Assembly (NCBI RefSeq): GCF_029023725.1
Contig: NZ_CP119075.1
Location: 367,501-431,500 of the forward strand
DNA: 64,000 nucleotides
Source: Synoicihabitans lomoniglobus
GTDB lineage: Bacteria; Verrucomicrobiota; Verrucomicrobiia; Opitutales; Opitutaceae
Direction of reading: 5' to 3'
Shown: in pieces, positions 41,029 through 52,428 of the stretch
Position numbering within the stretch: the first letter of the stretch is position 1
Layout: every line of letters starts with the position of its first letter
Program-made: the position numbers and the translations under genes
Notes under the pieces: generated by a model
The model's database searches: none
What the model saw: only the letters and a program-made list of their open reading frames with translations
What the model was told of the DNA's origin: nothing

Positions 41029-44000
41029 CTACCAATCGCAGAGGCTCGCGATGTAGTCGGCGCTGCCGTCGCGTTGCCAGCCGTCGAGTTGGGCTTGGTC
41101 CTTGAGCTGTTGACCGCGCTGGCGCGGCACCACGGCGAAAACGTTTTTCACATCAGAGAGGCCAGTCATGTCGCCCCAGAGTTTTTCGAACTGGGTCACC
41201 GGATAAACGTCTTCCTGGCCGTGGCCCCAGCGTTTTTTAACTTCTTTGATGGTGACGTAGGTCGGGAGTCGGGACGCGATACGGCGCACGGCCGCGTTGG
41301 TTTTGTTGGTGTCGCCAAGGTCGGCACGGGTGAGACCGAAGAACGTTAGCAGGCGGTCGACGTCGATCCAACAGGTGTTGGCATTGTAGTAGGTGAGACG
41401 CGATTCGTCTTCCTCCTGCGGGAGAGCGAGTCCTTCCACCAATCGCATCTTGCCGTCGACGCGGGCGAGTCCGCCGCCGTGGTCTTCGATGCGTTTGGTG
41501 ATCATCTCCCAACCCAGGGTGGCACCCGCAGCGTTGAACCAGCCCAACATGGCGGGATCAGCGGTCGCCCCGAGCGTATCGATGTTGTGAACCATCAGCG
41601 TGCGCAGGTTGGGCTGTTGGGCAATGAGCGCGGCGAGCGTGCCGTTTTTGAGCAGATTGGGGATCTCGAACCAATGGCCGACAGGGTGCAGGCACTGGCC
41701 GGGCAGATTGTCGGTGTAGTCGGCTCCTTCGCCGGTCGCACGCGCCCAGCCGGTCAGCGCGGCGCGCACGCTGTCGCGCATTTTCTCCTTCTGCTCGTCG
41801 AGTTTTTGCTGGGCCGTTTCCTCCCAGGCAAACTGCAGGTCGCGCACCGTGGGCACGAGGCGCAGGCCGATGGAGCGGCCGGGAGATAACCATACTTCAC
41901 GCTCCCACGCGTTGCCGTAGTGGGCACGCAGATACGTTTCGGTCGGGGCGTGGGTGAGGTAGCTCGTGGTGAAAACGTGCGGAATGGTGGCTCCGTGCGC
42001 GTGAGCCACCCGGCGGGTTTTCGCCAGATGCACATCGATGAAACTCCGGTGCTGGCCGTCGAATTTGGCGAAGGGATGCAGCCCTTTGACGACGCCTGCG
42101 CCTTGCGTCCACCGACTGCCGACGCCGGCGGCATAGGTGACCACGGCGAGCTCGCCCCGCGCGATGGCGGCGGCCCCGGTGGCGCGGTGGGTTTCGTTCT
42201 CGACGGTGCCGTCGAACAATGTCCCCGGGGTGACGTCTTCGATCTGGGCGGTGGGGGGCAGCCGGTTGAGCGCCATGCCGATGCGTCCGTCGCGCAGATC
42301 GGCGCGGATTTGCTCGTGTTGCTGGCGATCAAAGCCGTTGGCGTTGAGCAGCTCCTCCAACGTGTTTTCCTGACCTTGATCGTCCTCGATGGAGGGGAGC
42401 AACCGGTCGAGCAGACCGGGCAGGGCGGCGCCGAACTCCGGCTGATGCTGGGCGGCGCGGGTGAATTGGGTGAGGTCGATCTGCTCGCGATTGGTCAACT
42501 CCCGGGCTTCCCGTCGCAGGATGTCGGGCGTGACCTGACGGTAGTAGGCGACGGGCAGCAGGGCGTCGTCACCGGAAAGTAAATACGACGTGGAACCGTT
42601 TTCGTTGATGTGGAAATCGTAGACCACGGGGTCCATGGCGAACGGCAGTGACGATTCCAGATCGCGTTTGGCGGCGAGCATGATTTGGAGCAAACGATCC
42701 TGCGCCTCGGCGCGACGGGCCGGGGCAAAGATGAAGCCCATGCCACCTCCAGACATGCCGCCGAGCATCCAAAAGCCCCAGAAATCTTCGCCAAATTCGG
42801 CGCGAACTTCGCTGATCAGGCGTTCGGTGTAGCGGTTGCTGACCCACGGGATGATGGTCTGCAGCGGCCCGGTGAAGTTGGCGGTGAGTTCCGCACCGAG
42901 GGTTTTGATATCGCCGGTGGAGAGGGCCTCCAGAATGCGGTCCAGCGTGGCGACCGTGGACTGGCGGGCGTTCCAGGCGGCGGCGCTGCGCAGCAGGTAT
43001 TTCTCCGTGGCCATCTCGAGGATCGGGCCGACGTTTTGCGCCATGCCGCCGTGCACGAGCACGAGGGAATCCTGCAAGGCCTGACGGGCGGAAGCCGGAA
43101 TACGATCGGGACCCAGCAATGTGTGGCGGGGCAGCAGGGTCCCGCGGCTTATGCCGTATTCGGCGTCGGCGTCGGTGGCGGGGGCTCCTTCGATCAGTTT
43201 GATGCCCGGCCAAAGTCCACCCGAGTCCTGCCAACCGCCGCCGGAGCCGCCAATCCATTCGCCGAGAATGGCGCGGGCGGCGACGATGCGGCGCTCGTTT
43301 TCGGTCATCGGACCGGTGAGGTCGGCGATCTGGTGGGTTGCGCGCATGCAGGCCGCGATGAGGGCACCGAGGAGATTGGTTGAAACGGCGAGGCGGGAGC
43401 CTTTGGGAATGCCGTTCACGCTGGAGACGAGTTCAAAGCCCCGGCCCTGGCCGAAGACGCGGCCGAGCAGATCGGCCAGGCTGGCGCCCGAGCGCTCGAT
43501 CCCGGGAGGCACGATGCCGGCGGCGATGACGGCGGCTTTGAGCAGACCGAGATAGTCCCGACCGAAGTCGAACACCTCGTCCAAGTCGCTGATGCAGACG
43601 GAGGCTTCCAAATCGACGGAAGCGAGGCGAAGCACGGGTTCGTCGATCACGCGGAAGTAGGCCTCGACCGGCGGGCGGGTGGAGGCGTCGCGGCCGTGCA
43701 CGCCGAGGTCGATCGATACGTTGAGCACGCGGGCGCCCTCGGGGTAGTCCATGCCGAGGAAGAAGATGTCGCTCCACGCGCAGTGGGTGAGATCCATGCG
43801 CACGGCGGTGCGTTCCTGCAGGAGGGGAAACGGGGCGCGAGTCGAATCGCGCTGCACCAACTCGCGGCGCACTTTGAGCGGTTGGTCGAGCGGATGACCG
43901 AGGCGAAACATCCACGCGTTGCCCCGCGTGGAGCGCACGGTGCGTCGGACCTGGTCGGCCAACGTCTGGAATGCGAGCGCGTGGTAGCCCGCGGCGAGAG

Positions 44001-44346
44001 CGCTGCTGAGGGATTCGCTGGGGCCGGCGTCGGTTTGTTGCCGGCGAAGGCGGGTCAAAGCTTCCTCGAAGTGCCGTTCCAGCAGGTGCCGAAATGCATC
44101 GTAGGGCACGCGGCCGGATCGCGGCAGTTCCGTGCGGGTCGGCAGGTGATAGCGGTGAATGGCGCTGAGAAAAAACAACGCGCGCACCCGATGGTAGAGA
44201 TTGGGTTCGTCGTGGCGGTAGGATTCCAGTTCCTCACACGCTGCGAGCAGCGCGACGACGGAACGGCCTTCGCACCATTGATCAAGGGCCAGGTTGCGCG
44301 TCGCCTCATCGGCGCCGTTAATGATGTCGGTGATGCCGAGGCTCAT
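41029..44346 (-). CDS. GHMP-kinase-like / UDPGP-type nucleotidyltransferase fusion
   Basis: A 1105-residue two-part protein. The N-terminal part is GHMP-kinase-like, of the fucose-kinase type: RMDLTHCAWSDIFFLG (motif 1), GIPKGSRLAVSTNLLGAL (motif 2, with two of the usual glycines changed), SGGGWQDSGG and GGMSGGGMGFIFAP (motif 3). The C-terminal part from about 760 is a UDP-glucose-pyrophosphorylase-type transferase: VVTYAAGVGSRWTQGAGVVKG, then LMVHNIDTLGATADP. Such kinase-nucleotidyltransferase pairing would turn a free sugar into a nucleotide sugar, as FKP does for fucose. The sugar is unknown. The ATG at 44346 follows the GalU-like gene by four bases. Confidence 0.8.
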   Translation of the reverse strand: MSLGITDIINGADEATRNLALDQWCEGRSVVALLAACEELESYRHDEPNLYHRVRALFFLSAIHRYHLPTRTELPRSGRVPYDAFRHLLERHFEEALTRLRRQQTDAGPSESLSSALAAGYHALAFQTLADQVRRTVRSTRGNAWMFRLGHPLDQPLKVRRELVQRDSTRAPFPLLQERTAVRMDLTHCAWSDIFFLGMDYPEGARVLNVSIDLGVHGRDASTRPPVEAYFRVIDEPVLRLASVDLEASVCISDLDEVFDFGRDYLGLLKAAVIAAGIVPPGIERSGASLADLLGRVFGQGRGFELVSSVNGIPKGSRLAVSTNLLGALIAACMRATHQIADLTGPMTENERRIVAARAILGEWIGGSGGGWQDSGGLWPGIKLIEGAPATDADAEYGISRGTLLPRHTLLGPDRIPASARQALQDSLVLVHGGMAQNVGPILEMATEKYLLRSAAAWNARQSTVATLDRILEALSTGDIKTLGAELTANFTGPLQTIIPWVSNRYTERLISEVRAEFGEDFWGFWMLGGMSGGGMGFIFAPARRAEAQDRLLQIMLAAKRDLESSLPFAMDPVVYDFHINENGSTSYLLSGDDALLPVAYYRQVTPDILRREARELTNREQIDLTQFTRAAQHQPEFGAALPGLLDRLLPSIEDDQGQENTLEELLNANGFDRQQHEQIRADLRDGRIGMALNRLPPTAQIEDVTPGTLFDGTVENETHRATGAAAIARGELAVVTYAAGVGSRWTQGAGVVKGLHPFAKFDGQHRSFIDVHLAKTRRVAHAHGATIPHVFTTSYLTHAPTETYLRAHYGNAWEREVWLSPGRSIGLRLVPTVRDLQFAWEETAQQKLDEQKEKMRDSVRAALTGWARATGEGADYTDNLPGQCLHPVGHWFEIPNLLKNGTLAALIAQQPNLRTLMVHNIDTLGATADPAMLGWFNAAGATLGWEMITKRIEDHGGGLARVDGKMRLVEGLALPQEEDESRLTYYNANTCWIDVDRLLTFFGLTRADLGDTNKTNAAVRRIASRLPTYVTIKEVKKRWGHGQEDVYPVTQFEKLWGDMTGLSDVKNVFAVVPRQRGQQLKDQAQLDGWQRDGSADYIASLCDW

Positions 44347-44350
44347 GGCA

Positions 44351-45193
44351 TCAACGACCGGTTTGCGCGAGGAGCTCGACGATCTGCGTGAGCACGAGGT
44401 CGCGGTCACGGCCGCCGAGCGACAACGCGAGTTGTGCGTTGAGCAGGCCGTAGTCGGCGCCGATATCGTAGCGGCGCCCCGCGATGTTCAGCGCGAGGTA
44501 GCGGCGGCGGGAGGCAAGGGCGTGGAGCGCGGGCGAAAGGCCGAGCGGGGCGTCGGGCGCGGCTTGTTGCGCGGCCTCGAGCAGGGAAAAAATCTCGGCG
44601 TCGAGCACGTGCAGGCCGAAGAAACACAGATAAAAGCCGGCGCGCATGCCAGGCACGATCAACTCCTGTTCGGCGATCGTGGGCGTGGGCTTTTCCAGGA
44701 CGGATTCGATCTGATAAAGCGGGGTGTCGCCGCCGAGCAGTTTGCCGCCGATCGCGCCGTAGGATGTGATTTGATTTTCCCGCGTCGGCTGCACGGCGGA
44801 TACCGGAGTTTTTTCGGCGGCGGCGATATCGAGCAACTGCCGGGCGCACGTGGCGGTGGTGTCGCTGAGATGGAGGTGATCGCCGACCAGGTGCAGAAAC
44901 GGTTGGTCACCGATGGCGTCCCGCGCGCAGAGAATGGCGTCGCCGTAGCCGCGCGGAGTGGATTGTTCGGCAAACGTGACCCGGGAGCGCAGATCGCCCG
45001 CCGCTTCGGCGTAGGCCGCTTGATCACCGGGGCAGATGACGACCACGAATTCCTCGATGCCGGCGCCGGCGGCTTCGCGGAGCACGATTTCCAAGGCGGA
45101 CCGCCCGACGCCGTCGCGATCGATGAGGGTTTGGAGAGGGAGAGTGCGTTGGCGGGGATTGGCCGCCGTGACGAGCGCGTGTCGGACGTTCAT
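44351..45193 (-). CDS. GalU-like nucleotidyltransferase with degenerate GxGTR loop
   Basis: A 280-residue protein with the overall pattern of UTP-glucose-1-phosphate uridylyltransferase: STPRGYGDAILCARDAIG, LHLVGDHLHLSDT (the DD-like metal site), SYGAIGGKLL, VLEKPTP and GRRYDIGADYGLLNAQLA. The N-terminal nucleotide loop, normally AAGLGTRFLPATKAIPKE, reads AANPRQRTLPLQTLIDRD here, so G-x-G-T is lost although R-x-L-P remains. Activity may be reduced or regulatory. It lies directly upstream of the kinase/UDPGP fusion, so both probably act on the same sugar. Cytoplasmic. Confidence 0.8.
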   Translation of the reverse strand: MNVRHALVTAANPRQRTLPLQTLIDRDGVGRSALEIVLREAAGAGIEEFVVVICPGDQAAYAEAAGDLRSRVTFAEQSTPRGYGDAILCARDAIGDQPFLHLVGDHLHLSDTTATCARQLLDIAAAEKTPVSAVQPTRENQITSYGAIGGKLLGGDTPLYQIESVLEKPTPTIAEQELIVPGMRAGFYLCFFGLHVLDAEIFSLLEAAQQAAPDAPLGLSPALHALASRRRYLALNIAGRRYDIGADYGLLNAQLALSLGGRDRDLVLTQIVELLAQTGR

Positions 45194-45258: not shown

Positions 45259-45957
45259 CTACTTGGTGGTGCGCGGCGCGATCGTGGCGGGATCGGGCAC
45301 GGATTTGGCGGCGAAATCTTCGCTGGCCGGCGTCTCTTCCGTCTTGGGTTTGTCGGGATCGGGCGCGGGCGGTGCCGACAACCTCGCGGGCTCGGGACTG
45401 TTCAACTGCTGAGCGAGTGATATCTGGTGAGTGCTTTGGCGCCGTTTGAGCACTTTCTGGAAGAAGAGATTGTTGGGCACGCGCCATTGCGAGCCGTCGT
45501 GACTGAGCAGGGTGGTGAAGAAGAAATTAATATCGATCACGCGACCAGTCACGTTTTCGGAGGGCAGTTCGATGTCATCCCCCACGCTGTAAGGTCGCAG
45601 GATCACCAACAAAATCGTGGCCGAGGTATGGCTCAACAAACTCCACACGGCGACAAAACCGATCGCGACCATGGCGAGCACGGTGGAGATCATGGCCCAC
45701 AGTCCGCCGAGTTCGAAGCCGAACACGCCGAGGACCAGAATCGCCGTGATGATCCGCACGATCCAGCGAATCACATTGCGCGCGGGCACGACATCGTCCG
45801 GGGACAGGTGGGAGCGTTTGGTCAGGAGGCTGAGCATACGGCCCAGCACCATGTTGAGCAACATGCCGCCCAGGATGACCGCGGCGGCCACGGGCAGCGC
45901 GGCCATGAGGCCGGGAAGATAGGTCGAAATTTCGTTCCAGAGTTGGTCGAAGGTCAT
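45259..45957 (-). CDS. MscS-family mechanosensitive ion channel
   Basis: A 232-residue small-conductance mechanosensitive channel. Three hydrophobic segments (about 15-38, 60-82, 87-110; the last is the pore helix AMVAIGFVAVWSLLSHTSATILLVI) precede the MscS beta domain (RPYSVGDDIELP, TGRVIDINFFFTTLLSHDG, WRVPNNLFFQKVL). The C-terminal ~60 residues are Pro/Glu-rich (PAPDPDKPKTEETPA), and the usual C-terminal alpha/beta domain is missing, so it is a short form. It would release osmolytes after osmotic downshift. It heads the minus-strand run with nucleotide-sugar genes; a functional link is not clear. Confidence 0.9.
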   Translation of the reverse strand: MTFDQLWNEISTYLPGLMAALPVAAAVILGGMLLNMVLGRMLSLLTKRSHLSPDDVVPARNVIRWIVRIITAILVLGVFGFELGGLWAMISTVLAMVAIGFVAVWSLLSHTSATILLVILRPYSVGDDIELPSENVTGRVIDINFFFTTLLSHDGSQWRVPNNLFFQKVLKRRQSTHQISLAQQLNSPEPARLSAPPAPDPDKPKTEETPASEDFAAKSVPDPATIAPRTTK

Positions 45958-46034: not shown

Positions 46035-46907
46035 TCAGTAAGCCGGGGTGGCGCCGCGTTGGCTGGCCACCCATTCGCCGTGACGACAAGCGCTGGCGAG
46101 GCTTTCGGCGGGGGATTTCTCTCCCGCGAGGAGGTGGGAAAGCAGGCGGGCGAGAAACGCGTCGCCAGCTCCCACGGTATCCGCGACCTCAACTTCCCGG
46201 CCGGGTTCCCAGTGCCAGTGGCCGTTGATCAAAAGTCCGGCCCCGCGCTCGGCGGCGGTGATGCAGATCATGGGGCACTGGCGGTCGGCGGCAATGGCTC
46301 GTGCCATGGCTTCTTCGGCACCGGGTTGTTCGTCACAGGTGCCGAGGGCGAGGCGGGCGGCTTCGCTGGCGTTGAGTTTAAGCAGGTCGACGCCCGCGGC
46401 GAGTTTTCGCACCAAGTCGAGATCGTCGTGAGGAGCGCGGAGGTTGACGTCGAAGACACGCCACGCGTGATCGGGCAGCACGGTGAACAGGCGCGCCAGG
46501 GCGGATTGATTGAATGGCGTGCGCTGGGCGAGGGAGCCGAACACGATCGCGCGAGCCTCGACGGCGGCGCGGGTGGCGTCTTCGCCGACGGTGATTTGGT
46601 CCCAGGCGACGCTGGTGGTGATGTCGTAACTCGCATCGCCCCGCTCACCGAGGGCGGCGATGACCGTGCCGGTGGGCAGGCCTTGGTGCGTCTCGATCAG
46701 ACTGGTATCCAGGTTCCAATGCTTCAGTCGTCGCAGGAGTTCGCCGCCAAGCGTATCCCGACCGAGGCCGGAGATAAGCCGCACATCGGTATTCAATTGG
46801 TGGAGATGGTAGCCGACGTTGAAGGGAGCGCCCCCGGCAAACAGACCGGCGGGGAGAAAGTCCCAGAGGATTTCACCGAAACAGAGGATGGTCGGACGTT
46901 CAGGCAT
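46035..46907 (-). CDS. PfkB-family carbohydrate kinase, probable fructokinase
   Basis: A 290-residue ribokinase-fold kinase. N-terminal FGEILWDFLPAG, GGAPFNVGYHLHQL (PfkB signature 1 region), GRDTLGGELLRRL, and signature 2 VADTVGAGDAFLARLLS with the catalytic Asp. GGAPFNVGYHL is the fructokinase pattern. It would phosphorylate fructose, which the neighbouring sucrose-type genes could release. The ATG at 46907 is used. It follows the phosphatase/glycosidase fusion gene on the same strand after 136 bases. Confidence 0.88.
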   Translation of the reverse strand: MPERPTILCFGEILWDFLPAGLFAGGAPFNVGYHLHQLNTDVRLISGLGRDTLGGELLRRLKHWNLDTSLIETHQGLPTGTVIAALGERGDASYDITTSVAWDQITVGEDATRAAVEARAIVFGSLAQRTPFNQSALARLFTVLPDHAWRVFDVNLRAPHDDLDLVRKLAAGVDLLKLNASEAARLALGTCDEQPGAEEAMARAIAADRQCPMICITAAERGAGLLINGHWHWEPGREVEVADTVGAGDAFLARLLSHLLAGEKSPAESLASACRHGEWVASQRGATPAY

Positions 46908-47043
46908 GGTGGAGTCGAGTCGAAGGGATGGGGGTAGGGAAGTGAGGCGAGCTGAAGACGTTGGATGCAAAACCGCGGGCGAAGTTCAATTCCCGCCACG
47001 GTTCCACTTTACTCGGTTTTACGGATAGCGCATCCGCGATGGC

Positions 47044-49146
47044 TCAATCGCCACCGTGATCGGGGTCGGCTTCGACCTCCTGACAAGCGCGAATGAAGCA
47101 CGCGGCGGACCAGGCTTGATACGCTTTACCCATGGGTCGGCCCGTCTGGCCGTGGACCCATTCGTTGAACTCCCACTCGCGATCGCGACCGAGGCGGTTG
47201 ACCTCGGCGAGACGATAAAGTTCGCGACACGCGACCTCATGCAAACCGAGGCGATGGATGAAGCGCACCCACATGCCGCCGACGAAGGGCCAGATGCCAC
47301 CGTTGTGATAGTGGTGCGGGAGATTGAGGAGATTGACGGTGTAGTAGGCGCGCCAATCGGGGTCGCCGGCTTGCACGACCGGGTAGAGATTGGAGACCGG
47401 ATGGGGTTCGTTGACCCCCACGCCCCACATGAAGCGGAACGCCTCCCGGGCGCGGTCGATGTCGAGGAGGTTGGTGAGAAAGGCCAGCACGTTGCCGAAG
47501 ACATCGCAGCGCCAGTTGAAGGCGAAGGGGGTGATCTCGGCCAACAGGTAGTGGGTGTCGCCCATGCTGAACTGGCGGTTGGCAAACGAGCGCGTGTCGT
47601 GGCCGGTGGTATCGGGATTGGTCGTGGGCCAGAACATGCTGAGGATCTTGCCGCGAATGTGCTGGGACCAGCGCAGGTAGTCGGCGGCGCGATCGTGGTC
47701 GCCGCGAAACTCGAGCAGATGCCCGTAGCACACGTTGGCGCGATACCAGAGGACTTCGTCGTAGAGCACGTTGTAACTGCGGCCAAACAAATCGGTCCAA
47801 TCCCCGGCCTCGGGAATTTCGAGCAAGCCGTCGTTGTTGCTGTCGTGGGCCGCCAGCCAGTCCATGGCGCGTTGCAAGGCGGCGGCGTGCCGGTCGAGAA
47901 AGGCGGTGTCGCCGGTGCGATCGACGAAGTTGTAGACCGCGATGATGAGCCACAGGCCCGAGTCGATGGCACAGATGTTGCCCACCCCGGAATAGTCGGG
48001 CACGCCGTCGTCGATGCGCACGTTGGCGGGAATCTGGCCCGTCGGGGAAATGGCCCCCAGCAACGTCTCCAACGTGCGGCGGGAACAATCGAGGATCTCG
48101 GGGTCGTCGACATCGAGACTGTTGATCACGGTGATCGCGCCGTCGCGGCCCCACACGGAACGGTAGTTGGCGTCGGTGCCGGTGACGGTGTTGTCGTGCA
48201 ACGAGCAGGCGGAAAATCCGATGGGCGTGATGTTGCGCTTCAACGCGTCGATGGCGCGTTCGTAGGCGGTGTGCACAAAGGCTTTTTCCTCATCGTTGAG
48301 ACCGCCGAGTTTGGTGCCGGTGAACAGCATCTTGAAATCGGTGGTCATCTTGGCGCGCGGGATGGCGGTCTCGTTGGCCGTGGGTGGGGCGCAGGCGACG
48401 CCGAAGTGACACAGTCCCTCGACCACGCCGTCGGCCATGATTTGGCGCGCGTGATGCAGATGGGGATGACCGACGGTGGCTTCGAGCAACTCCGGCTGGG
48501 CGTTTTGCACGACGATGCCTTTGACGCCGGGCACGAGGAACATGCTGCTGTCGTTGCCGGTATCGCCCGCGACGATGACCGATGACAACGGCATACCAAG
48601 GTGTTTGCACAACCAGCGCAGGGCACCGCCCTTGGTGGCCGCCTGCGGCAGGATATCCAAGTCACGCGCGCTGGAGTAAACGACAGTGACGTCGAGCCCG
48701 GTGGCCTGGACGAGTTGCTCGATCTCGGCGATGCGCTGGGCGGTGGCATCGTGCAGATACCAACTCGTCTTGTGGTCGTTTTGAAAGTGATCGGGTTGGG
48801 GCGAAGTGTCCTCGAGGTCCTGGAGGATGGCGTGGACCTTGGTGCGGTCCCAGTTGCGATTCAGTTCGTCGGACCAGGCGTCGAGTCGAGCGTCGCCCTT
48901 GACGTCAAAGATCTCGGTGCCAACGCCGCCGATGTAGAAGTCCGGGGACGGCAACAACTCGGCGGCGACCAACGACTGCATGTCGGCGACCAGTCGGCCG
49001 CTGTTAAAAACGAGACAAGGGCGTTCGGCATCGGTGAGCGTTTCCCACGCCGCGATGAAACGCTGGGTCGACTCCGGATTGCCGAGCAGGGTGCCGTCGA
49101 GATCGGAGCTGAAGAGTTGAATCGGTGAGTTAATGGATGCGGCCAT
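47044..49146 (-). CDS. Sucrose-phosphatase-like HAD fused to a GH100/GDE-like glycosidase
   Basis: A 700-residue fusion read as one continuous frame. Residues 1-265 are an HAD-IIB/sucrose-6-phosphate phosphatase domain: FSSDLDGTLLGNP (nucleophile Asp), VFNSGRLVADMQSL, GGALRWLCKHLGM and VAGDTGNDSSMF. Residues about 285-690 form an (alpha/alpha)6-barrel glycosidase: YRSVWGRDGAITVINSL, GNICAIDSGLWLIIAVYNF, EIPEAGDWTDLFGRSYNV and GGIWPFVGGMWVRF. This resembles neutral/alkaline invertases (GH100) and glycogen-debranching-type barrels. One protein may both make sucrose by dephosphorylation and split it. Between it and the GT4 gene at 51091 lies a symporter on the other strand. Confidence 0.85.
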   Translation of the reverse strand: MAASINSPIQLFSSDLDGTLLGNPESTQRFIAAWETLTDAERPCLVFNSGRLVADMQSLVAAELLPSPDFYIGGVGTEIFDVKGDARLDAWSDELNRNWDRTKVHAILQDLEDTSPQPDHFQNDHKTSWYLHDATAQRIAEIEQLVQATGLDVTVVYSSARDLDILPQAATKGGALRWLCKHLGMPLSSVIVAGDTGNDSSMFLVPGVKGIVVQNAQPELLEATVGHPHLHHARQIMADGVVEGLCHFGVACAPPTANETAIPRAKMTTDFKMLFTGTKLGGLNDEEKAFVHTAYERAIDALKRNITPIGFSACSLHDNTVTGTDANYRSVWGRDGAITVINSLDVDDPEILDCSRRTLETLLGAISPTGQIPANVRIDDGVPDYSGVGNICAIDSGLWLIIAVYNFVDRTGDTAFLDRHAAALQRAMDWLAAHDSNNDGLLEIPEAGDWTDLFGRSYNVLYDEVLWYRANVCYGHLLEFRGDHDRAADYLRWSQHIRGKILSMFWPTTNPDTTGHDTRSFANRQFSMGDTHYLLAEITPFAFNWRCDVFGNVLAFLTNLLDIDRAREAFRFMWGVGVNEPHPVSNLYPVVQAGDPDWRAYYTVNLLNLPHHYHNGGIWPFVGGMWVRFIHRLGLHEVACRELYRLAEVNRLGRDREWEFNEWVHGQTGRPMGKAYQAWSAACFIRACQEVEADPDHGGD

Positions 49147-49325: not shown

Positions 49326-51032
49326 GTGCACCCGATTGATACGGCCATTGTAGGACTTTATCTGCTGTCGTTGCTCGTGGCGGGCGTGTGGCTGGCCCGC
49401 CGCGCCGGTCAGGGCGCGGATGATTATTTTCTGGGGGGACGCCGGTTGCCGTGGTGGGCGCTCGGGTCCTCGGGCATGTCGAGCAATCTCGATGTGGCGG
49501 GCACGATGACGATTGTCGCGCTGGTCACGCTTTACGGGCTGCAGGGATTTTGGATCGAGATGCGGGGCGGGGTGGTGCTGCCGATCGCGGTGTTTCTCGC
49601 CTTCATGGGCAAGTGGCACCGGCGCTCCGAAGTGATGACCACGGCCGAATGGATGCTGTTGCGTTTCGGCGACGGGCGCGGCGGGCGCGCGGCCCGATGG
49701 ACGGCGGCGTTGACCTATGTGATTCTGACGGTGGCCATGATCGTATTCTTCCTGTCGGCGGGCGGGCGATTTCTCGCAGAGTTTCTACCGTATTCAGAAA
49801 CTCAATGCGCGGTGGGCGTGGCGCTCATTGCCTTTCTCTACACGACGGCGAGTGGTTTGCACGGCGTGATCTGGACCGATGTCGTGCAGTCGGTCCTGAT
49901 CGGAGGAGCGGCGATTTATGTGGCGGTGACGGCGGCAGGGCTGGTCACGCCGACATTGTTGGCGGGCTGGCCGGCGGCGGAGTTGAACACCTTCTGGCCG
50001 CAAAGCGGCGACGGAGCGATGGAGCCTTACGTGCCCTTTTATGCGTTTCTCGCCATATGGATCAGCAAAGGCGTGCTGGAAGGACTGGGGGGCAGTGGAG
50101 GCTCGGCGTATATGGCGCAGCGGTTTTATGCGGCGAGCGATGAGCAGGACTGCGGCAAGATCGCGATGTTGTGGACGGTGCTCTTTGCCGCGCGTTGGCC
50201 GATGGTGTTGGGCTTTGCCATCATCGCGATGCAGCTCGGTGTGACCGTGGACTCGTTCGCGGCGGCGGAGGGAGTGTTGCCGACGGTGTTGCAATCGACC
50301 TATTTCCCCGCTGGGGTGCGCGGACTGATTCTCGCGGCGATGTTGGCGGCGGCGATGTCGACCTTTGACAGCACGCTCAACGCGGGGGCGTCCTACGTGG
50401 TGCGCGATCTGTTTCAGCCGTGGTTTCCCCGGGCGGCGGAGCGGCAATTGGTGTGGGCCGGTTATGGGGCTTCCGCGGTGCTGGTGGCGATGGGACTGGG
50501 GTTGTCGCTATGGTTGGGCGGCACGGTGTTGGGCGTCTGGATCGGCATCGTCATGCTGCTGTTTCCGGCGTTTTTGGTGCCGTTCGCGTTGCGGTGGTAT
50601 TGGTCGCGGTTCAACGGTCCGGGGTTTGCGGCCGGTATCGCGGGCGGATTTGCCACGGCGTTGTTTTTCTCGCTCATCGACCCGGCCGGATGGAACGAAG
50701 CGACCCGGTTTTTGGCGATTTCCGTGGTCTCAGCGGTGGCGGCGATTGCCGTCGCGCTGAATTCGGCCCCCGTGGATCCGGACCAGTTGCGACGATTTTA
50801 CGAGCAAGTCCGGCCCTTCGGCTGGTGGCCGCGGGCCTGGCGGCAACCCGACAAGGTCGAGCATCGGGCTGATGTCGCACGGCTGCTGCAGGCGCTGGTA
50901 TGGCAGATCACCACGTTTCTCCTGCCGATGGGCATGGTGTTGGGTATGTGGGTCGAAGTGGCGGTGGCCGCCGTCGTGTGGATCGTCCTGGCGGTGCGGT
51001 TGTGGCCGGATAGCAAACGACCGCAGGCGTAA
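49326..51032 (+). CDS. Sodium:solute symporter (SSS family)
   Basis: A 568-residue inner-membrane transporter with about 13-14 hydrophobic segments. N-terminal LYLLSLLVAGVWLARRAG and DYFLGGRRLPWWALGSSGMSS are the SSS family start, GLHGVIWTDVVQS and LAAAMSTFDSTLNAGASYVVRDL the conserved core segments (TM6, TM9 with the Ser/Thr of the second sodium site). It would import a small organic solute with Na+. It lies between, and opposite to, the sucrose-type genes, so a sugar or related substrate is plausible. The start is GTG at 49326; the spacer to 49146 is 179 bases and divergent. Confidence 0.92.
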   Translation: MHPIDTAIVGLYLLSLLVAGVWLARRAGQGADDYFLGGRRLPWWALGSSGMSSNLDVAGTMTIVALVTLYGLQGFWIEMRGGVVLPIAVFLAFMGKWHRRSEVMTTAEWMLLRFGDGRGGRAARWTAALTYVILTVAMIVFFLSAGGRFLAEFLPYSETQCAVGVALIAFLYTTASGLHGVIWTDVVQSVLIGGAAIYVAVTAAGLVTPTLLAGWPAAELNTFWPQSGDGAMEPYVPFYAFLAIWISKGVLEGLGGSGGSAYMAQRFYAASDEQDCGKIAMLWTVLFAARWPMVLGFAIIAMQLGVTVDSFAAAEGVLPTVLQSTYFPAGVRGLILAAMLAAAMSTFDSTLNAGASYVVRDLFQPWFPRAAERQLVWAGYGASAVLVAMGLGLSLWLGGTVLGVWIGIVMLLFPAFLVPFALRWYWSRFNGPGFAAGIAGGFATALFFSLIDPAGWNEATRFLAISVVSAVAAIAVALNSAPVDPDQLRRFYEQVRPFGWWPRAWRQPDKVEHRADVARLLQALVWQITTFLLPMGMVLGMWVEVAVAAVVWIVLAVRLWPDSKRPQA

Positions 51033-51090: not shown

Positions 51091-52428
51091 TTAATCGCCA
51101 TCGTGCCAGGGCTCGTCCCAATCATCCTCGTCAATGGCATGGGGACTCGGACGACCTTCGACGAGGCCGATGAGTTGTTGAGCGATCCCGGTCCAAGTGA
51201 AGAGGCTGCGAGCCTTGTGGGCCCCCATACGTTTCATGCGATTGCGTAATTTGGGATAATTCAGCGGTTTCATCATGGTAATGCCGAGATCCTCCGGGTC
51301 GAAGGTGTCGGCATAGAGGCCGTGGCGGCCGTAACTGATGGCACGGAACAAACCGCCGTGGACCGTCACGACCGTCGGGGTCCCGCAGGCCATGGCTTCG
51401 ATCGCGGTCATGCCGAATGGTTCGTAGCGGCTGCTGAGCACGAACAAATCGGCCGCGCGGTAATAGTCGGGCAAGTCCTCATCGCTGATGAAGCTGCCAA
51501 ACTTGACGCGTTTTTCGAGGCCGTGGGATTTCACCTGGGCCTTGATGCCGGCGAGAATCTCGCGTTCCTGCTTGTCCATTTTTTTGCCACCGACGGCGAG
51601 GCGCAGGATGGCGTCGGGGACACGTTTGGCCGTCACTGCAAACGCGTCCACCAGCAGGTCGTAACCCTTGTTGGTGGCGAGACGACCGAGGGCGACGATG
51701 GTCGGTTTCTTGAAGCCGAGGCGTTTGCGGATGGCCTCGCGTGATGCTTCGCCCACGGGAAAGAAACGGTTGTCGTCATAACCGGGCGGAATCATGGCAA
51801 CGCGGCGACGAGGCACCTCGTAGTCTCTGATGATCATGTCGTGCTGCGGCGGCGTGGTCGCGAGCACCATGTCACAATGGCTGTAGAGCAGGGTCTCCTC
51901 GCGGATGCGGGTGGTGAAGTTGAACTCCTGGTCGAAGTCCGCTTTCTTGTCCGGGTAATCGGTCTCCATCTGCGCACGCTTCCAGAAGCCGAGCGAATGG
52001 GGCGTGTGCACGTGGGTGACCCGAAGGGTGTCGGCAAGACGTTGTCCCGCGATGCCCGCATCCCAGTAGTGGCTGTTGATGAATTCGTATTTGAGTTTGT
52101 GCCGCTTGATGTAACGCAACGCGTGCTCTCCCCATTCCATGAGGTGTTCGTGCAGGTATTCCTTGGGGATGAAATCCTTGCCTCCGCAGGGCATGCGAAT
52201 GACGCGGACTCTGCCGCTCACGGTATCAATCTGGGGCTGGCCTTCGAAACGACGGGTCCAAATATCAACGTCGTAGCCGAGCTGCCCGAGCTTCTTGGCG
52301 AGTTCGAGCACGTAAACCACCTGGCCTCCGGTATCGGCGGCGCCCAGCGGCGGGTTGGCGGCCACGTAGCCATGAGTGGACACCATCGCGATGCGAGGGC
52401 GTTTAGGATCTACTGTTATCGCGGACAT
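51091..52428 (-). CDS. GT4 glycosyltransferase, sucrose-phosphate-synthase-like
   Basis: A 445-residue GT-B-fold retaining glycosyltransferase. The N-terminal GAADTGGQVVYVLELAKKL is the acceptor-binding loop of sucrose-phosphate synthases and relatives. INSHYWDAGIAG and HTPHSLGFWK follow. The donor half has ALGRLATNKGYDLLVDAF and YEPFGMTAIEAMACGTPT (E-x7-E catalytic motif). The product is probably sucrose-6-phosphate or a similar fructose disaccharide phosphate; mannosylfructose-phosphate synthase is an alternative. A phosphatase-glycosidase fusion and a fructokinase follow downstream on this strand, across the symporter. Confidence 0.88.
   Translation of the reverse strand: MSAITVDPKRPRIAMVSTHGYVAANPPLGAADTGGQVVYVLELAKKLGQLGYDVDIWTRRFEGQPQIDTVSGRVRVIRMPCGGKDFIPKEYLHEHLMEWGEHALRYIKRHKLKYEFINSHYWDAGIAGQRLADTLRVTHVHTPHSLGFWKRAQMETDYPDKKADFDQEFNFTTRIREETLLYSHCDMVLATTPPQHDMIIRDYEVPRRRVAMIPPGYDDNRFFPVGEASREAIRKRLGFKKPTIVALGRLATNKGYDLLVDAFAVTAKRVPDAILRLAVGGKKMDKQEREILAGIKAQVKSHGLEKRVKFGSFISDEDLPDYYRAADLFVLSSRYEPFGMTAIEAMACGTPTVVTVHGGLFRAISYGRHGLYADTFDPEDLGITMMKPLNYPKLRNRMKRMGAHKARSLFTWTGIAQQLIGLVEGRPSPHAIDEDDWDEPWHDGD

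Follow-up and report, generated by a model that had tools for sequence, protein, structure and literature searches.

A protein joining a sucrose-phosphatase-type domain to a GH100-like glycosidase in a predicted bacterial sucrose turnover module

The window analyzed here is a stretch of 64,000 nucleotides from the verrucomicrobial bacterium Synoicihabitans lomoniglobus (Opitutaceae; contig NZ_CP119075.1, positions 367,501 to 431,500 of the forward strand). At 47044..49146 its minus strand codes for a single protein in which a HAD phosphatase of the sucrose-phosphate phosphatase (SPP) type is fused to a GH100-like (α/α)6 glycosidase (hereinafter the GH part), as recognized from the open reading frame listing, Pfam, PDB searches, and a structure model. 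The original prediction had proposed such a fusion, grouped on one strand with a GT4 glycosyltransferase and a fructokinase around a symporter, and the layout was borne out: the frame runs uninterrupted from its ATG to a stop over 700 residues, and the minus strand also carries an SPS-like (sucrose-phosphate synthase-like) GT4 of 445 residues (51091..52428; Pfam, profile scores, residues, and neighborhood) and a fructokinase-like PfkB-family sugar kinase (46035..46907; frame listing, Pfam, and profile scores). The kinase is listed with a TTG start at 46970 (46035–46970), which is probably too early, an in-frame ATG at 46907 being the more likely start. The SSF-family sodium:solute symporter between the GT4 and the fusion (49326..51032; Pfam) is itself on the plus strand, so the two genes are not contiguous in the window; it is an optional part: of 40 loci, five have it upstream of the fusion at a distance of 3.5 kb or less. 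Promoter-like sites between the fusion and its neighbors number 0 against 1.3 in shuffled sequences, and terminator-like sites 7 against 6.1.

Within the fusion, the HAD-IIB/S6PP domain occupies residues 10–249 (48400..49119, minus; Pfam, residue counts, and fold match) and the (α/α)6 glycosidase domain about residues 282–696 (47059..48303, minus; Pfam, profile search, and fold match). An AlphaFold2 model computed with 46 alignment rows has a mean predicted local distance difference test (pLDDT) value of 84.5 and a predicted template modeling score of 0.87, with pLDDT below 50 at residues 451–458 and over most of 508–545; in a Foldseek search with this model the Synechocystis sucrose phosphatase 1s2o ranks first and the Anabaena alkaline invertase InvA next. 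The closest relatives are records from Opitutaceae (L030 and L002 of the loci described below), and no second copy was found in the organism's own genome at 1e-3.

In the N-terminal half, the Pfam S6PP model matches residues 10–249 with 228.2 bits (1.6e-67; cut-off 20.3), in agreement with the predicted SPP-like HAD-IIB domain, and the SPP-subfamily model TIGR01482 is passed with 108.8 bits against a cut-off of 107.15. Sequence searches of the PDB with this half recovered 1s2o as the best entry (7.1e-33), and structural comparison with VIA-align 2 superimposed 241 residues on it (Z 29.6). We aligned 46 fusion and GH rows, of which 42 extend into the HAD domain (that of the window and 41 others) and four comprise the GH part only: the catalytic D15 and D17 are invariant in each of the 41 rows that have a residue at these positions, as are K172, D195, N198, and D199 in 42 of 42. 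The HAD part is thus like the Synechocystis SPP (slr0953) in domain, fold, and catalytic residues, at 31% identity; however, the Synechocystis enzyme stands free, whereas the HAD domain described here is joined to a glycosidase and lies under the SPP equivalog cut-off.

The C-terminal half is matched by the Pfam models Glyco_hydro_100 (2.5e-16; 59.9 bits vs. a cut-off of 23.6; best stretch residues 531–687) and GDE_C (5.7e-11; 42.4 bits vs. 21; residues 328–686), as expected of the GH100-like barrel that had been proposed. Sequence searches of the PDB returned InvA (5goo) as its best match (1.4e-12), and a profile of 29 GH rows recovered Anabaena InvB (9.1e-19), InvA (2.1e-18), and Arabidopsis CINV1 (6.8e-16). 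By VIA-align 2, GH100 is also the nearest fold, with InvA at Z 32.4 (350 residues aligned; root-mean-square deviation 3.1), followed by dextran dextrinase (31.0, the first row from outside GH100), InvB (31.0), the PDB entries titled ‘Glycosidase’ (5z3a and kin; about 30), and amylo-1,6-glucosidase (28.2), no family being ruled out on these scores. The catalytic residues of InvA are an Asp and a Glu, D188 and E414 (PMC6995568); by hand count on the printed alignments, these acids of InvA and InvB are matched in the fusion by D452 (codon 47791..47793, minus) and E662 (codon 47161..47163, minus). Both are identical in 46 of 46 rows, as are R334, D335, D449, and W450. Taken alone, the alignment with InvA is weak near the Asp (4.6 and 18.2 bits); that with InvB forms a single stretch of 64.2 bits spanning both acids. 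Hence InvA, InvB, and CINV1 provide the best match in fold and sequence, with the catalytic Asp and Glu aligned, but the identity is about 20%, and the GH part, unlike them, is fused to a HAD domain and is without the stretch that holds Arg430 of InvB. Judged from its acids and modeled fold, the GH part is predicted to work like a GH100 enzyme, minus this one feature; the proposed invertase likeness accordingly stands for acids and fold, and fails for one arginine reported from GH100 invertases, sucrose specificity and activity of the GH part being predicted. What was found is a catalytic-looking barrel of the GH100 fold, rather than an unrelated or non-catalytic one. The possibility that either half is a dead domain was considered and rejected for the aligned rows, since the catalytic residues are kept. 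GH-only relatives (about 36% identity) occur on Deinococcus plasmids (L073 and L074), annotated as glycoside hydrolase 100 family; genes for sugar uptake or sugar breakdown surround them, and no SPS-like gene is annotated in the stretch viewed.

A single similarity scan of genome contigs yielded 60 related loci, of which 48 span both domains, confirming that the fusion recurs in relatives. The frame is uninterrupted in 46 of these 48 and broken in two metagenome contigs (L002 and L054), which rules out an artefact or a chance frame. By record titles the spanning loci come from five phyla, namely Verrucomicrobiota, Planctomycetota (L022 and L027), Acidobacteriota (L024), Chloroflexota (L033, L034, L036, and L039), and Spirochaetota (L035 and L038); as the records are mostly metagenome bins, individual taxon labels may be wrong. 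Among the non-spanning loci, four have the GH part alone (L051 and L053 from Planctomycetota, L060 and L061 from archaea), five end at a contig edge (L043, L046, L048, L055, and L059), and three are fragments within a contig (L056, L057, and L058).

Unfused forms were also recovered. A sample of 288 Verrucomicrobiota genomes gave matches at 1e-20 in 44; the whole fusion is present in 23, and in two genomes (G251 and G178; L062 and L063) HAD, GT4, and GH are three consecutive separate genes on one strand. A split frame in relatives, named beforehand as an observation that would tell against the fusion, is seen in these two genomes and in the two broken frames. G274 has a lone HAD (L064; 47% identity) ahead of a canonical SPS-SPP, G143 has the fusion and an additional GT4-HAD pair without a GH part (L065 and L068), and in L015 an additional lone HAD sits between the GT4 and the fusion. 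In a tree of the GH parts, one change separates nine separate from 54 fused rows (support 90/89; none of 500 shuffles was as low), which fits one fusion event, with the caveat that the support is moderate and the distant rows are long-branched. The HAD tree places the lone domains of L015, L065, and L064 amid fused HADs, which indicates a probable loss of the GH part in these cases; a long row, L076, also falls among the fused HADs, its placement being unsure. The Chloroflexota loci have GT4s that cluster with the ones from Paracoccus and the unfused operons (84/75, which is not firm) and GH parts that sit among the fused ones, which means that partners may have been reshuffled.

Thirty-eight fusion loci extend 1.6 kb or more to both sides; among these, the GT4 gene is next door on the same strand in 33 and on the locus in 37. 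The adjacent gene lies at most 0.9 kb before the fusion in 30 loci and at most 0.6 kb after it in three from Chloroflexota (L034, L036, and L039); elsewhere the GT4 is separated from the fusion by the SSF symporter (L002, L012, and L037) or, in L015, by a response regulator and the additional HAD, and none is present on L004. In the Verrucomicrobiota set, HAD/fusion matches (1e-20) and SPS-like matches (1e-40) co-occur in the same 44 of 288 genomes, the lists being compared by eye. Twenty of the 23 fusion-bearing genomes have the divergent GT4 (177–220 bits with the SPS model; cut-off 576), at a distance of at most 2.1 kb in 18 of them; in G119 and G275 it is found on a separate contig. G275 also has a HAD (35% identity) adjoining a very divergent GT4 (L066, 5845–8047; 76.9 bits with the SPS model).

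An alignment of 46 GT4s (that of the window and 45 locus rows above 350 bits and 380 residues, the Paracoccus locus L072 included and shorter and more distant rows omitted) revealed Q36, K89, H144, R174, E336, and E344 to be invariant in 46 of 46 rows. Mapping by hand onto the Thermosynechococcus elongatus SPS, whose chain numbering runs three ahead of the paper's, positions Q51, R105 (as K, which also occupies this place in the H. orenii SPS), H158, R178, R249, E331, and E339 are kept in every row. According to PMC7264703, the residues to which the conserved GT4 positions correspond hold fructose or the phosphate or are needed for activity: H158 and E331 are required, and R105 and R178 bind sucrose 6-phosphate through its phosphate. 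Several of the conserved positions are common to MshA too; the motifs GGQ and H-S-x-G (HSLG) are as in SPS, whereas MshA has GGM and HTLA.

In three of the 23 fusion-bearing Verrucomicrobiota (G243, G254, and G066), the divergent GT4 is replaced by a canonical SPS above the TIGR02472 cut-off (615, 609, and 599 bits), and these genomes have no second SPS-like match at 1e-40. This SPS, a frame of 729–741 residues on the same strand, comes 1–53 bases after the fusion match; the divergent GT4 comes mostly before. The fusion of G254 (L069) was read through and is intact, with a double TGA at its end. Nineteen genomes have a canonical SPS but lack the fusion; in five of them (G004, G035, G081, G130, and G159), the match that comes next is to a sucrose phosphorylase above its cut-off, so a sucrose-using enzyme beside the making enzymes is not unusual. 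Sucrose is suggested both by the canonical SPS that neighbors the fusion and by the sucrose phosphorylase that neighbors SPS-SPP. Neither a sucrose phosphorylase (1e-40) nor a GH32 (1e-10) turned up in the organism's own genome.

These results support the interpretation offered in the original prediction, and we propose, with a probability of about 0.62, that the fusion is a two-enzyme protein of a sucrose turnover module whose HAD domain finishes sucrose and whose GH domain cleaves it. The observations beneath this proposal are the fused frame, its conservation, both catalytic sites and folds, the GT4 partnership, the SPS swap in three genomes, and the unfused trio in two; from them we infer the substrate and activity of each part, as well as any regulation and an osmotic role. 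The GT4 would combine nucleotide-activated glucose with fructose 6-phosphate to give sucrose 6-phosphate, which the HAD domain would dephosphorylate to sucrose, to be kept as a compatible solute or reserve. Sucrose no longer needed would be hydrolyzed by the GH domain through an inverting attack employing D452 and E662, and the PfkB fructokinase, where present, would return fructose to fructose 6-phosphate. The fusion may thus be a built-in tool for managing cellular sucrose. A further-reaching version, in which the two halves are oppositely regulated as a two-headed switch that sets the sucrose pool, the protein having arisen once and passed between phyla, is tentative, and we would sooner bet against it than on it. 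PFK-2/FBPase-2 is an analogous protein with oppositely regulated making and destroying activities.

Several observations weigh against our proposal. The GT4 is far under the cut-off of the SPS model TIGR02472 (214.9 vs. 576), scores about equally on the MshA model (212.5), and has N in place of R253 of SPS in 46 of 46 rows. The HAD domain falls short of the SPP equivalog model TIGR01485 (169.8 vs. 183.65), and an SPP-type HAD adjoins ggpS on the plasmid pDSHI02 of Dinoroseobacter shibae (L076, 5974–8255), from which it follows that the HAD family is probably not bound to sucrose; this HAD is perhaps a glucosylglycerol-phosphate phosphatase of the SPP type. In the GH part, GDE_C is over its cut-off as well and covers more of the domain than Glyco_hydro_100, the model is of low confidence in the loop that carries D452, and a three-residue stretch including Arg430 of InvB is absent from 29 of 29 GH rows, this arginine being reported as conserved in most Solanum members (PMC6995568). 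Genomic context adds further points: the nested lone HADs suggest that some lineages can do without the GH part, just 15 of the 43 loci long enough to show it have the PfkB gene within 0.4 kb after the fusion, and fusion-bearing genomes in some cases have a sucrose phosphorylase over the cut-off elsewhere (two of 23; G143 and G181) or a GH32 match (five of 23; G010, G018, G119, G243, and G254), so sucrose may have users other than the GH domain.

Some of these points would suit other explanations. If the GT4 and HAD make sucrose and the GH domain has a different glucoside as its substrate, for instance an α-glucan end or an oligosaccharide, feeding or clearing sugar for sucrose making, one would understand the 42.4-bit GDE_C match across the whole domain, the absent Arg430, the nearness in fold of dextran dextrinase (Z 31.0) and amylo-1,6-glucosidase (Z 28.2), and the other sugar genes adjoining the Deinococcus relatives; however, GH100 is the best match in both sequence and fold, and in five of the 19 fusion-free genomes with a canonical SPS the neighboring place is held by sucrose phosphorylase, which makes this explanation unlikely. 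It is distinctly unlikely, in our view, that the sugar made and broken by the module is a hexosyl fructoside other than sucrose. Mannosylfructose, known from Agrobacterium, is an example: the GT4 would use GDP-mannose and fructose 6-phosphate, with a phosphatase and glycosidase to match. The low SPS score of the GT4 agrees with this, its fructose 6-phosphate residues would suit any enzyme with that acceptor, and the HAD family probably acts on other sugar phosphates too; yet three of 23 fusion genomes have a canonical SPS as the neighbor with the divergent GT4 absent, and the GH part is closest to enzymes named as sucrose invertases.

A cyanobacterial gene adjoining SPS yields an enzyme that makes glucosylsucrose, as described in PMC9909042, a precedent for the idea that the GH domain is a transferase building larger sucrose-based oligosaccharides. 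That enzyme, however, is a UDP-glucose-using glycosyltransferase and not a GH, and the acid pair of GH100 hydrolases is kept in the fusion, making a transferase highly improbable. An MshA-like inositol glycosyltransferase, by which the module would make a thiol precursor instead of sucrose, is scarcely credible: the GT4 does score about as well with MshA as with SPS, both with the profile models and in the PDB (171 bits for MshA, 169 bits for the T. elongatus SPS), but its HAD partner is SPP-like, it has the GGQ and HSLG motifs in place of GGM and HTLA, and a canonical SPS neighbors the fusion in three genomes. We accordingly retain sucrose turnover as the preferred explanation.

Other genes in the window are less closely tied to the fusion. 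A short MscS-type mechanosensitive channel protein (45259..45957, minus; Pfam), the single match at 1e-4 in the organism's genome, is loosely linked: 10 of 56 loci have such a gene, variously arranged, within 6 kb of the GH part, seven of them as in the window and mostly from close relatives. Sucrose is described as an osmolyte in a planctomycete (PMC3694870); terms for SPS or SPP were looked for in the text of that article and none was found. This and the vicinity of the channel weakly suggest an osmotic role. A GalU-like nucleotidyltransferase (44351..45193, minus; profile scores and locus comparison) might supply NDP-glucose and is a matter of local synteny only. A frame of 1126 residues (41029–44409, minus) combines a fucokinase/GHMP-like stretch (NF009948, 199–578) with a UDPGP stretch (909–1021), and a frame of this kind is near the module in L002, L030 (in pieces), and L059 as well. 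On a plasmid of Paracoccus sp. TOH (L072, 4674–8266), genes for a 514-residue glycosidase, a HAD of the SPP type, and a GT4 sharing 45% identity with that of the window stand in a row, perhaps the same module with a different glycosidase. This glycosidase scores slightly above the Pfam GH32N cut-off (24.6 against 22.1 bits); NCBIfam returned nothing at 0.01, and the best PDB row is an anhydrogalactosidase (E 0.027). Given this weak evidence for GH32, the Paracoccus glycosidase was not used in support of sucrose.

Bidomainal SPS-SPP (GTD-PHD) proteins, some with a dead phosphatase part, are described in PMC4390843. Like the fusion, they join a sucrose phosphatase-type domain to an enzyme of the sucrose pathway; however, there the phosphatase is joined to the synthase, and here to a presumed cleaving enzyme. 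The operon spsA-sppA-frkA-amsA of Synechococcus PCC 7002, in which sucrose levels reflect the balance of making and using enzymes, likewise groups a synthase, a phosphatase, a fructokinase, and a sucrose consumer (PMC11046441), but it consists of four separate genes with an amylosucrase, whereas in the present system a hydrolase-type domain is fused to the phosphatase. The earlier concern that making and cleaving sucrose in one place would be futile is thereby weakened, since one bacterial operon holds both activities. No SPP-glycosidase fusion was found among the matches listed from open-license papers, which is weak evidence of absence, and a phosphatase and a hydrolase on one chain are new as far as the literature searched goes.

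The sucrose fusions described in PMC4390843 join two successive making steps, those of synthase and phosphatase. In the protein presented here the phosphatase is instead joined to an enzyme expected to destroy its product, and both active sites are kept across records from five phyla. The fusion could explain sucrose use in S. lomoniglobus, in whose genome neither GH32 (1e-10) nor sucrose phosphorylase (1e-40) was detected. If both halves are active, it would offer a compact natural case of how a cell keeps a make-and-break pair from idling, and would provide a testable function for proteins of many uncultured bacteria.

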